Below, piece by piece: positions 20,801 through 24,528 of a stretch of 64,000 bases of DNA (the stretch's first letter is position 1; every line of letters starts with the position of its first letter). The position numbers and the translations under genes are program-made. Under the pieces are notes generated by a model. It searched no databases and was not told the origin of the DNA. It worked only from the letters and a program-made list of their open reading frames with translations. The DNA is taken from contig NZ_AP024154.1 of the NCBI RefSeq assembly GCF_015533855.1, positions 871,001 to 935,000 on the forward strand, given 5' to 3'. Source of the stretch: Echinicola sp. 20G. GTDB lineage: Bacteria; Bacteroidota; Bacteroidia; Cytophagales; Cyclobacteriaceae.

Positions 20801-22327
20801 ATGGCTGTTAAGAAAATTCAATCTGCCCTTATTTCAGTATTTTACAAAGACAATCTTGAACCAATCATTGCCCTTCTCAAAGAGCAAGGTGTAAAAATCT
20901 ACTCTACAGGAGGAACCCAAAAGTTCATTGAGGAACAAGGCGCAGAAGTAACTGCTGTAGAAGACCTGACCGGCTATCCATCCATTTTCGGCGGAAGGGT
21001 AAAAACGCTTCACCCAAAAGTATTTGGAGGAATCCTTCACAGAAGAGAAGACGAAGGTGACCTTTCCCAAGCCCAGGAATTTGATATCCCTGAAATCGAC
21101 TTGGTAATTGTGGATCTTTATCCGTTTGAAGAAACTGTAGCTTCAGGTGCTTCAGAGCAGGATATTATCGAAAAAATAGACATCGGTGGAATTTCTTTGA
21201 TCAGGGCAGCAGCCAAGAACTTCAAAGACGTTACCATTATTTCTTCTCGTGACCAATATGGTGAACTAGAAGAAAGATTGAAAAACAATGGAGGTGGTAC
21301 TACCATCGAAGACAGAAAATATTTTGCTGCCAAAGCATTCCAAGTGTCTTCCCATTACGACACACATATCTTCAATTACTTTAACCAAGCTGAAGAAATC
21401 CCAGCTTTGAAAGTAAGTGAAAACAATGCCAAGGCTTTGAGATATGGTGAGAACCCTCACCAAAAAGCCCATTTCTATGGCAAGTTGGATGACCTTTTTG
21501 AGCAATTGAACGGAAAAGAACTTTCTTATAACAACTTGGTGGACATCGATGCAGCAGTAGCATTGATGGCTGAATTTGATGGAGAAACTGCCTTTGCAAT
21601 CCTTAAGCACAACAATGCCTGTGGAGTGGCCAAAGGAGCTTCTGTAAAAGAAGCTTACCTTAAAGCATTTGCAGCAGATACGCTTTCTGCGTTTGGTGGC
21701 GTTTTGATCACCAACCAAACAGTGGACAAAGCAGCTGCAGAAGAAATGCATAGCCTATTCTTCGAAGTGTTGATTGCCCCTGCATTTGATGAGGATGCTT
21801 TAGAGGTATTGAAAGGCAAGAAGAACAGAATTCTTCTACTTCAGAAAACCAAAGTAGGTGGTACCAAGCAAATCAAAACCTTGTTGAACGGTATCATTGA
21901 ACAAGACAAGGATTTGTTCATGGAAACCAAGGAAGACTTCAAAGTAGCGACTAAAATAGCTCCAACTGAAGAACAAAAAGACGCCTTGGTATTTGCTGCC
22001 AAAGTTTGTAAGCACACGAAATCCAACACCATTGTATTAAGCAACCAAGACCAGCTATTTGCCAGTGGTGTGGGGCAAACCTCAAGGGTAGATGCATTAA
22101 AGCAAGCCATCGAAAAAGCCAAGTCATTTGGTTTTGAATTGAAAGGTTCTGTTATGGCTTCAGATGCTTTCTTCCCATTCCCTGACTGTGTGGAAATTGC
22201 TTCCAAAGAAGGCGTAGCGGCAGTGGTTCAGCCAGGCGGCTCGATCAAAGACCAAGACAGTGTTGATTTTTGTGACCAAGCCGGAATGGCCATGGTAATG
22301 ACAGGAGTAAGACACTTCAAACATTAA
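20801..22327 (+). CDS. purH: bifunctional AICAR formyltransferase / IMP cyclohydrolase
   Basis: Last two steps of IMP synthesis in the cytoplasm. Residues 1-190 form the methylglyoxal-synthase-like IMP cyclohydrolase domain (IYSTGGTQKFIEE, FGGRVKTLHP). The rest is the AICAR transformylase domain, with the conserved Lys-His pair in ILKHNNACGVAKG and the GVGQTSRVDAL and VQPGGSIKDQD blocks. The 508-residue length is normal. It follows purN, a common purine gene pair, and ends in a clear terminator. Confidence 0.97.
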   Translation: MAVKKIQSALISVFYKDNLEPIIALLKEQGVKIYSTGGTQKFIEEQGAEVTAVEDLTGYPSIFGGRVKTLHPKVFGGILHRREDEGDLSQAQEFDIPEIDLVIVDLYPFEETVASGASEQDIIEKIDIGGISLIRAAAKNFKDVTIISSRDQYGELEERLKNNGGGTTIEDRKYFAAKAFQVSSHYDTHIFNYFNQAEEIPALKVSENNAKALRYGENPHQKAHFYGKLDDLFEQLNGKELSYNNLVDIDAAVALMAEFDGETAFAILKHNNACGVAKGASVKEAYLKAFAADTLSAFGGVLITNQTVDKAAAEEMHSLFFEVLIAPAFDEDALEVLKGKKNRILLLQKTKVGGTKQIKTLLNGIIEQDKDLFMETKEDFKVATKIAPTEEQKDALVFAAKVCKHTKSNTIVLSNQDQLFASGVGQTSRVDALKQAIEKAKSFGFELKGSVMASDAFFPFPDCVEIASKEGVAAVVQPGGSIKDQDSVDFCDQAGMAMVMTGVRHFKH

Positions 22328-22354: not shown

Positions 22355-22384
22355 GTCCCTGGCTGAAAAGTCAGGGACTTTTTT
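22355..22384 (+). terminator. terminator of purH
   Basis: 10-bp stem GTCCCTGGCT/AGTCAGGGAC with one wobble pair, followed by six T (22379-22384), 28 bases past the purH stop. Confidence 0.85.
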
Positions 22385-22412: not shown

Positions 22413-22500
22413 GCTGTTCAGGATTTGAAATCCTGAACAATAAATAAAGAGGATTTGAAATCCTCATCATCTAGATTCGGGATTGCAAATCCCGAATAGC
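22413..22500. repeat. REP-like palindrome array, left copy
   Basis: Three different short palindromes in a row: a 23-bp one with 11-bp arms (GTTCAGGATTT) at 22416-22438, a 17-bp one (GAGGATTT arms) at 22449-22465, and a 23-bp one with 10-bp arms (ATTCGGGATT) at 22475-22497. The same three, in the same order and spacing, recur to the right of the transposase gene. All three share a GGATT core. Confidence 0.85.
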
Positions 22501-22586
22501 CAAAATTTTCAGCTAGTCTTAGTAAATCAAATATGATATCCTTAATTTAAAGATTGTTTATATTTTTCAACTAACACTTTTTAGGC

Positions 22587-23114
22587 ATGGCTTTTACGTA
22601 TAAAATCAGGGATCAATATGGAATTTATTTTGTGACATTTACGGTAAACCAATGGGTAGATGTTTTCTCTCGTCCAATTTATGCTGAGCTCCTTCTTGAG
22701 AGCATTAAACACTGCCAAAAGCATAAAGGATTATTGGTTTATGCCTATGTCATCTTGACCAATCATTGCCACTTAATAATCGGAAGTAAAAAGGAACCAT
22801 TAAGTGATATTATTCGGGATTTGAAAAAATACACGGCAAAAAGTATTATCAAAGCCATTGAAGAAAATCCTCATGAAAGCAGGAAAAACTGGTTATTATG
22901 GCTATTGAAAAAGGACGATGGTATCTGATTCTGGAAAGTGGGCTATCATGGTGAAGAAATCACTTCCCAATATTTCCTTGACACCAAAATCCGATATATC
23001 CATCAAAACCCCGTAAAAGCAGGAATTGTCGAAAAAGAAGAAGAATACCTACTGAGTAGTTGTGGTGAATTCTATGGAGTCAGAAAATGCCCCATAGAAC
23101 TCGCTCCATTATAA
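22587..23114 (+). pseudogene. REP-associated tyrosine transposase (RAYT, Y1/HUH family), interrupted by a TGA
   Basis: IS200-like single-strand DNA nuclease of the REP-associated type. The HUH motif is His60-Cys-His62 (TNHCHLII) and the likely catalytic Tyr is Tyr82 (LKKYTAKS). After 113 codons an in-frame TGA at 22926-22928 stops the frame. The same frame then continues for 61 more codons with the expected family C-terminus (FWKVGYHGEEI, IRYIHQNPVKAGIVEK) and ends in TAA at 23114. The full length of about 175 residues matches the family. A single nonsense change is the simplest explanation, so the gene is probably dead or gives a truncated protein. Matching palindrome arrays lie on both sides. 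Confidence 0.9.
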
Positions 23115-23133
23115 TTTAACTGTTTGCTATTTT

Positions 23134-23222
23134 GCTGTTCAGGATTTGCAATCCTGAACTCTTTATAAAGGAGGATTTGAAATCATACACAATCTAATTC
23201 GCGATTTAAAATCCCGAATAGC
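23134..23222. repeat. REP-like palindrome array, right copy
   Basis: Direct repeat of the left array: a perfect 23-bp palindrome (GTTCAGGATT arms, TGC centre) at 23137-23159, a decayed copy of the GAGGATTT palindrome from 23171 whose right arm no longer pairs, and a third at 23197-23219 with one mismatch. Both arrays begin TGCTGTTCAGG and end CCCGAATAGC. Unit-to-unit spacings are 33/26 (left) and 34/26 (right). Confidence 0.85.
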
Positions 23223-23499: not shown

Positions 23500-24528
23500 A
23501 TGGGATTATTCGACTTTTTCTCAAGTGATATAGCTATAGATTTAGGTACTGCCAATACTCTTATTATACATAAAGAAAAGATCGTAGTGGACGAACCCTC
23601 GATCATTGCGATAGATAAAACAAGCAACAGGATTCTGGCTGTAGGCCGTGAAGCGATGAACATGCATGAAAAAACGCATGAAAACATCAAAACGATCCGC
23701 CCATTGAAAGATGGAGTAATTGCGGATTTCTACGCCGCAGAGCAAATGATCAGGGGTTTGATCAAGATGATTCCTGGGCATAAAAAGGGCATGTTCCCAC
23801 AATCTCACCGCATGGTGATCTGTATCCCATCCGGCATTACGGAAGTGGAAAAAAGAGCGGTAAGGGATTCAGCCGAACATGCTGGTGCCAAAGAAGTCTA
23901 TATGGTCTATGAGCCGATTGCTGCTGCAATTGGTATTGGAATCGACATTGAAAAGCCAATGGGATCCATGATCGTAGATATCGGAGGAGGTACCACAGAG
24001 ATTGCCTTGATTGCCCTTTCAGGCATTGTAGCCGACCAATCTATCCGTGTAGCAGGTGACACCTTCACTAAGGATATTCTGGATTACATGAGGAGACAGC
24101 ACAACCTCTTGATCGGTGAACGGTCTGCCGAGAAAGTGAAGATTGCCATTGGATCAGCCTTGACTGAACTGGATGATGCTCCTGAAGACTATGAAATCAG
24201 AGGTAGGGACTTAATGACAGGTATTCCAAAAGTCATCAAAGTTTCTTATTCTGAAATTGCTTTTGCCTTGGACAAGTCTGTTTCCAAGATCGAAGAGGCT
24301 GTACTTAAGGCCCTTGAAATTGCTCCTCCGGAACTTTCCGCTGATATTTATGACAATGGTATCCACTTGACAGGTGGTGGCGCATTGTTGAAGGGGCTCG
24401 ACAAACGTCTTCACCAAAAAACAAAACTTCCTATTCACATTGCAGAAGATCCTTTAAGGGCAGTAGTGAGAGGAACAGGTACCGCCCTGAAAAATATAAA
24501 TAGTTTCAGAACCGTGCTGATGACCTGA
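23500..24528 (+). CDS. mreB: rod-shape determining protein MreB
   Basis: Actin-like ATPase that forms membrane-bound filaments and guides lateral cell-wall synthesis. The actin-fold motifs are visible: phosphate 1 loop (IAIDLGTANTLI, residues 9-20), phosphate 2 loop (MIVDIGGGTTEIA) and the adenosine motif (LTGGGALLKGLD). An N-terminal amphipathic stretch (MGLFDFFSS) fits membrane attachment. 342 residues, normal length. First gene of the classic order mreB-mreC-mreD-mrdA-rodA. Confidence 0.97.
   Translation: MGLFDFFSSDIAIDLGTANTLIIHKEKIVVDEPSIIAIDKTSNRILAVGREAMNMHEKTHENIKTIRPLKDGVIADFYAAEQMIRGLIKMIPGHKKGMFPQSHRMVICIPSGITEVEKRAVRDSAEHAGAKEVYMVYEPIAAAIGIGIDIEKPMGSMIVDIGGGTTEIALIALSGIVADQSIRVAGDTFTKDILDYMRRQHNLLIGERSAEKVKIAIGSALTELDDAPEDYEIRGRDLMTGIPKVIKVSYSEIAFALDKSVSKIEEAVLKALEIAPPELSADIYDNGIHLTGGGALLKGLDKRLHQKTKLPIHIAEDPLRAVVRGTGTALKNINSFRTVLMT

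Follow-up and report, generated by a model that had tools for sequence, protein, structure and literature searches.

A REPtron-like locus with signs of decay between purH and mreB in Echinicola sp. 20G, and a two-hairpin module beside RAYT genes of Bacteroidota

Results

The window analysed here, a stretch of 64,000 nucleotides from Echinicola sp. 20G, carries a gene for a REP-associated tyrosine transposase (RAYT; 22587..23114, + strand) bracketed by matching arrays of palindromes. The locus sits between purH upstream (20801..22327, +) and mreB downstream (23500..24528, +), which served as synteny anchors. The gene matched PF01797 (Y1/HUH transposase) and the NCBIfam RAYT family NF047646 (103.2 bits, cut-off 80), whereas the IS200 model gave 21.8 bits, below its cut-off of 55, which places the gene closer to RAYT than to IS200. 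At E 0.001 the sole PDB sequence match was TnpArep 4er8 (E 1e-4). An HxH motif and a downstream Tyr (alignment position 137) were invariant in 13 aligned relatives. One in-frame TGA, which an earlier reading had missed, occupies codon 114 (22926..22928, +). As it comes before the Tyr presumed to be catalytic, translation as written gives a product without this residue. The stop codon is absent from three orthologues in the genus. Among this genome (G000 of the 11 genus genomes compared), G003 and G007, the dN/dS of the RAYT gene was 0.05-0.07, that of G009 being not computable, and that of purH was about 0.02 in the same pairs; the RAYT values indicate therefore that the gene was under selection. 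Two other RAYT matches occur in this genome, 47% and (truncated) 45% identical to the one in the window. This RAYT type is single-copy in the genome and belongs with the vertically inherited, single-copy RAYT/TnpA-REP genes; the available text of PMC8049555 describes RAYTs as single-copy, vertically inherited and not mobile.

The left array (22413..22500, +) consists of a GCT foot, a long hairpin, a short hairpin, an inverted long hairpin and AGC, the reverse foot. Its palindrome 1 (22415..22439, +; 12/12 paired) has a 23-nt core at 22416-22438 and its foot at 22413-22415, palindrome 2 (22449..22465, +) is short, with 17 nt and 8/8 paired, and palindrome 3 (22475..22497, − strand) is again long, with 23 nt, and corresponds to the palindrome-1 REP inverted, its AGC foot lying on the minus strand at 22498-22500. 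The right array (23134..23222, +) is a direct, partly decayed copy. Its palindrome 1 is an intact long hairpin (23137..23159, +), palindrome 2 is broken (23171..23187, +; 6/8 paired), and palindrome 3 (23197..23219, −; AGC at 23220-23222) is 10/11 paired by plain count, with a net stem score of 8 versus 10 on the left. Palindrome centres are 30 and 29 nt apart in the left array, 31 and 29 nt in the right. A separate T-tailed hairpin lies downstream of purH at 22366-22382.

The preliminary description of this DNA had placed the transposase gene between direct copies of an ~88-bp array, and this was confirmed (84% identity over query positions 1-88, E 5e-19), as was the same order and orientation of the palindromes in both arrays. 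Its view of three distinct palindromes per array did not hold. Aligned with its own reverse complement, the full array agrees in 68 of 89 columns (76%), so that palindromes 1 and 3 represent a single REP, present once in each orientation around a small central hairpin. The four-palindrome array of G009 reaches 80%, so that both array types contain two inverted REPs as a unit, as in REPINs or BIMEs. Judged from its sequence, each array is an inverted repeat resembling a REPIN or BIME, and the TGCT start and TAGC end noted earlier are two outward-pointing feet. As single-stranded DNA the left array is predicted to fold into three hairpins (−24.4 kcal/mol, z −7.8, 0/200 shuffles as good). The predicted fold of the right array is weaker (z −3.5, 0/200 shuffles as good) and its minimum lacks the three hairpins, because palindrome 2 is broken and palindrome 3 weakened. 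The 64-kb window holds 123 palindromes, and only two neighbouring pairs have centres 28-31 nt apart, both in the left array. The arrangement is thus far from chance, the right array being a decayed copy.

Nine of the 11 genus genomes gave a RAYT match with an E value of at most 1e-10; the matches numbered 20, and 14 were used after six truncated or split ones had been left out. At the purH-mreB site itself, a RAYT gene is present in 4/11 genomes and an array or array relic in 8/11 (a remnant in G001 excluded). The order array-RAYT-array is found in this genome, with the TGA, in G003 (RAYT 93% identical to that of the window), in G007 (91%) and in G009 (78%), whose arrays have four palindromes. 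The G003 site contains in addition a TraB-family gene and a segment of ~350 bp between further arrays or array pieces. This TraB/PrgY/GumN-family gene (L063:344-1264), which has an array piece on one side and an array on the other, was not seen in the other 10 purH-mreB intergenic stretches (at most 1,220 bp). In G005 the site carries one array without a gene, and in G006 two arrays flank a 350-bp segment, matched by eye to that of G003, without RAYT. Partial arrays, taken as relics, occur without RAYT in G002, where the array is degenerate, and in G008. The closest relative, G001, retains a palindrome-1 remnant (84% over 37 nt, E 2e-4), the G010 site has other palindromes, and nothing was recognised at the G004 site.

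In a purH-mreB-mreC tree, G001 groups with G000, G006 falls together with G003 and G007, and both G005 and G008 nest with G009 (supports 88 and 90); the position of G002 is uncertain. On this topology the most economical reading is at least four independent losses. RAYT divergence follows that of the flanking genes across the purH-mreB copies, and clades differ in the left and the right array at once, having either three or four palindromes on each side. The pattern, as read from sequence comparison, fits repeated loss of RAYT and not transposition. In the preliminary description, palindromes at the same place in relatives lacking the gene were to count against the array as a mobile or recognised unit, and arrays or relics do lie there without the gene in G005, G006, G002 and G008. 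These gene-less arrays are best read as apparent gene loss, a reading that therefore speaks against an element that moved in as a unit, and not against the array as the recognised unit. The purH-mreB series shows the decay of a locus: intact, with a stop codon, with the gene gone and one array left, and as a remnant.

Elsewhere in this genome the array is scarce. The full array was found at the RAYT locus only, in its two copies, other hits being at E 0.02 or weaker in a search at E<=10. With the G007 array as query (E<=0.001) there were two matches in this genome, both of them the window arrays, and with the G009 array one weak half-array match (C1:3664980, 78% over 51 nt, E 6e-4). Many dispersed REP copies were therefore not found in this host genome, given the two full arrays and the single weak match to half an array. 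Exact matches to the bare core GGATTTGNAATCC number eight in the genome, four of them inside arrays; one of the four outside was examined and, by eye, lies within a coding gene. On each side of the RAYT of 47% identity (locus L010) lie tandem modules of ~150 bp with four other palindromes. Modules of this type, some partial, also occur away from that gene, at one place near 1.42 Mb and at eight in the stretch from 1.81 to 1.85 Mb. At one locus (L210:7782-10490; C1 about 1,818,800-1,821,500), a sigma-70-like ORF is followed by a Cas12f-like ORF, which matches PDB 9n9c ('Nuclease-deactivated Cas12f') over 362 residues (E 5e-187). Three tandem units of ~280 bp come next, each with a guide-RNA-like repeat and one four-palindrome module of the L010 type (by eye). 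Rfam gave no match at gathering scores, and no related plasmid record was found.

When the G007 array was searched against the genus, further full-length matches appeared in G003, G006 and G007. One solitary-array locus is common to these three genomes, with three ordered palindromes in G003 and G007 and a degraded middle palindrome in G006. This genome and G001 carry the neighbouring sequence of that locus without the array; the extra stretch of the array-bearing genomes is wider than the array and imprecise, so that it amounts to presence or absence and not to a clean insertion. At a second shared, orthologous locus array number varies: G006 (L283) has three full matches plus three partial ones, G007 (L281) two full matches and G003 (L279) one full match. 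A third locus has a single solitary array in G006 and G007. A tblastn search with 13 RAYTs on ten fetched regions gave a match in the RAYT control only, and no RAYT match was obtained near solitary arrays or half arrays in any of the nine such regions (4-7 kb). G003 and G007 have intact RAYTs and few further arrays.

Half-array matches (one long and one short hairpin) were frequent in two other relatives. In G005, 17 of 20 fetched places have them outside other repeats, one of the 17 also matching the full array at 71%. In G009 at least 38 unique places, after merging of rows, lie outside the RAYT locus (40 of 82 candidates scored; 36 fetched regions cover all 38 places, with one best place taken for each). 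In 31 of the 36 regions the half array lies inside a longer repeat with its own terminal inverted repeats. Spread driven by RAYT was considered for these G009 copies and rejected, as the 31 regions carry the flanks of another repeat; since they lie mostly inside that repeat, their dispersal is not evidence of RAYT activity. A G009 site compared with G005, G008 and G010 was likewise rejected as a clean empty site on account of nested repeats. Within G009, L228:4246-5242 holds a repeat of ~600 bp with 23-bp inverted ends and many G005 matches, itself inside a larger unit that has CATAGCCGTCAG-type ends and also carries a half array. A separate observation concerns L076 (G005; RAYT 1501-2013), where direct repeats of ~509 bp, 97% identical, gave the top flank score among the 14 genus loci.

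The preliminary description had regarded the whole array, and not a single REP, as the mobile or recognised unit. Solitary arrays without the gene, which it had suggested looking for, were indeed found at other loci in three relatives, one of them at a site where neither this genome nor its sister has the array; half-array matches occur too, and in this genome the array was found at the RAYT gene only. Mobility was not borne out, the RAYT and its arrays being an orthologous fixture at purH-mreB. The array would thus partly behave as a unit, because solitary arrays exist, one of them where this genome has none.

A wider comparison drew on a discovery set of 109 RAYT loci. The genus contributed 14 and the family 24; the other 71 came from named genomes, almost all of which carry the label Bacteroidota or that of a subgroup. 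The family loci were drawn from a longer match list (30 loci, of which five genus duplicates and one at a contig end were left out) and the phylum loci from 80, nine with short flanks being left out. The two flanks matched each other at >=50 bits in 14/14 genus, 16/24 family and 46/71 phylum loci, versus 4/327 mismatched pairs; after dereplication the counts were 10/10, 14/22 and 44/69. The flank copies are direct in the 14 genus loci tested, and both direct and inverted in other loci. Flanks of 350 bp contained 437 palindromes versus about 56 in shuffles. The distance between neighbouring centres peaks at 29-30 nt (62 pairs, none in shuffles), and the commonest form is a 23-nt hairpin, 9 nt and a 17-nt hairpin. 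From these sequences we derive a module that often recurs, with a (C/T)T foot, a hairpin of ~23 nt, 9-11 nt, a hairpin of 15-17 nt and centres 28-31 nt apart. By set criteria it is present in 56/109 loci and absent from 53/109. Near-duplicates, found afterwards, make up 8 of the 109 loci and are included in the spacing, foot and apex counts.

The geometry is tied to the neighbourhood of the gene: in the 57 of the 71 phylum loci that have long flanks, 44 pairs at 28-31 nt lie beside RAYT (21 loci) and none at 2 kb. In 82 of 135 pairs the inner five bases of the two hairpins are identical or differ at one position, versus about 32 expected between loci. Among the 105 modules from 56 loci, 89 have CT or TT directly 5' of the long hairpin, versus 13 on the inner side and a background of 16%; the modules were oriented with the long hairpin first, and their two hairpins are unequal by selection. 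Distance between RAYTs correlates with distance between hairpin apices (Mantel r 0.47, 59 loci, 0/2000 permutations), close relatives being included, and the correlation is partly shared ancestry.

For a hold-out test, predictions were fixed before 40 new RAYT loci were fetched; two identical to discovery loci were dropped, and the remaining 38 retain three near-duplicate pairs. A pair at 28-31 nt, predicted in at least 40% of loci, was found in 16/38 (34 pairs versus 0 in shuffles), and the module by set criteria in 14/38, leaving 24/38 without. The long hairpin was distal to the gene in 20 of 27 modules, as predicted. The predictions for a GYT foot failed: it was expected in at least 50% of modules and was present in 12 of 27 (background 3%), and the inner side, expected to stay below 15%, had it in 5 of 27. 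A CT foot, chosen after seeing the data, was present in 22 of 27 modules versus 5 of 27 on the inner side and a background of 5%. The spacing stands, and (C/T)T describes the foot better.

Discussion

The preliminary description called this locus REPtron-like, and the RAYT family match, together with matched flanking arrays in 14/14 genus RAYT loci, supports this; the RAYT gene appears to be flanked by its own REP sequences. We consider it probable that the locus is a dying REPtron of a Bacteroidota kind, in which the RAYT, a single-strand nuclease of the HUH/Y1 type, was inherited in place and is flanked by its own two-hairpin REPs. The REP would here be the module itself, with its (C/T)T foot, hairpin of ~23 nt, linker of 9-11 nt and a 15-17-nt hairpin whose apex is similar, and the ~88-bp array would be two modules in opposite orientation that share one short hairpin. 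The RAYT may bind both hairpins of a module on single-stranded DNA through the shared apex, whose similarity suggests that one protein reads both. Cleavage would take place at or beside the pyrimidine-T foot, by analogy a natural candidate for the cut or the guide. Arrays or half arrays may have been copied in the past at a low rate, without movement of the RAYT gene. Because the arrays are direct repeats, recombination between them could delete the gene and leave a single array behind, in the way that solo LTRs arise; G005 would be an example. In this genome the gene is broken, the right array is eroding, and no second full-array locus was found.

Three other accounts of the locus were weighed against this dying REPtron. 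That the arrays are the ends of a true transposon inserted between purH and mreB would explain the symmetry of the matched ends and the absence of the complete element from the site in G001 and G004. However, the four close genus copies are all in the same place and their RAYT divergence follows the flanking genes, a second close copy was not found in the genome, G001 has the palindrome-1 remnant, and four relatives carry a gene-less array or relic at the same site. Whole-element transposition into purH-mreB was accordingly rejected, on the shared site and the congruent divergence, and we regard it as very unlikely. Somewhat less improbable, yet still doubtful, is a sequence of events in which the array came first and the RAYT entered later, duplicating it. 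The gene-less arrays in G005, G006, G002 and G008 and the solitary arrays at other loci would suit this order, with G002 (degenerate array, no gene, uncertain tree position) as the only candidate for an early array-only lineage. Against it, orthologous RAYTs sit at the same site in G009 and clade A, which requires either the gene before the split or two insertions at one point; moreover, G005 and G008 are nested with G009 at the supports given above, and the left and right arrays change together between clades. Ordinary transcription terminators or attenuators, with an incidental likeness of the two sides, are hardly credible: the palindromes do lie between co-directional genes and their hairpins are stable, but purH already has its own T-tailed hairpin, the arrays match each other and recur at other loci, and the paired geometry goes with RAYT genes, being seen beside them and not 2 kb away.

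A further alternative concerns what is recognised, so that its probability does not add up to one with those above: these may be plain REPs, each single hairpin being the recognised unit and the pairing a by-product of close placement. In the Proteobacteria treated in the available text of PMC3686654, REPs occur as a rule in doublets, and roughly half of the discovery loci and most hold-out loci have no module. The hairpins of a module are nevertheless unequal, by selection, and usually 23 versus 15-17 nt, the foot stands on the outer side of the long hairpin and rarely on the inner, and the spacing peak at 28-31 nt holds over different stems. We consider plain REPs unlikely. The broader proposal that goes with the two-hairpin REP is that in much of the phylum RAYTs read as one substrate a two-part REP, in which a long hairpin with a foot and a short one without are set a fixed distance apart, and that geometry and foot set the REP class while the hairpin sequence drifts with the RAYT. 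This generalisation is tentative, and we would place it slightly below an even chance. If true, one hairpin might be held by each protomer of a RAYT dimer, for example, with cleavage at the pyrimidine-T foot. The rule of foot, hairpin and linker makes many non-GTAG REPs of Bacteroidota searchable, and it allows a direct biochemical test.

Several known systems resemble this one. The canonical GT[AG]G 5' of the hairpin is absent here, the foot being GCT in the window and (C/T)T in most modules of other loci. For E. coli, the available text of PMC8266576 describes cleavage of single-stranded REPs by TnpA-REP at CT dinucleotides on the 5' or the 3' side of the hairpin, with a crucial role for GTAG. 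No description of the two-hairpin module was found in the open-access RAYT, REP and REPIN literature as covered by its texts without supplements. The closest described system is RAYT subclass 2.6 (group 5) of Bacteroidetes, for which the available text of PMC6006769 reports, from manual inspection, flanking 'atypical secondary structures' without GT[AG]G, and the motifs NH[LIV]H, WQ and YIH[QN]NP. The present locus shares with it the phylum, a YIHQNP Tyr motif, flanking structures without GT[AG]G and the possibility of copies elsewhere; it differs in having NHCH and FWK in place of NH[LIV]H and WQ, and the two-hairpin geometry, the foot and the ordered array are not in that available text. As in REPINs and BIMEs (available texts of PMC3116915, PMC2817692 and PMC8266576), two REPs are inverted, and tandem arrays occur at the 47%-identical RAYT, but here a short hairpin lies between the REPs and is shared, copy number in this genome is low, and there is no GTAG. 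Orthologous RAYTs may have different flanking REP classes, as described under 'orthogroups' and 'orthoswitch' in the accessible part of PMC3686654. One RAYT locus with three- or four-palindrome arrays by clade, on both sides together, is of this kind, although the phylum is different from those cases and copy number is low here. TIRtrons with their TIRYTs (PMC3733652, as far as its text was available) also have a RAYT-like gene between matching terminal repeats; in contrast to them, the flanking repeats are direct in 14/14 genus loci and each is itself an inverted REP-like repeat (two types checked). The kind of system is thus known, and a fixed two-hairpin pattern, often seen in the sequences across Bacteroidota, would be the element that our analysis adds to it.
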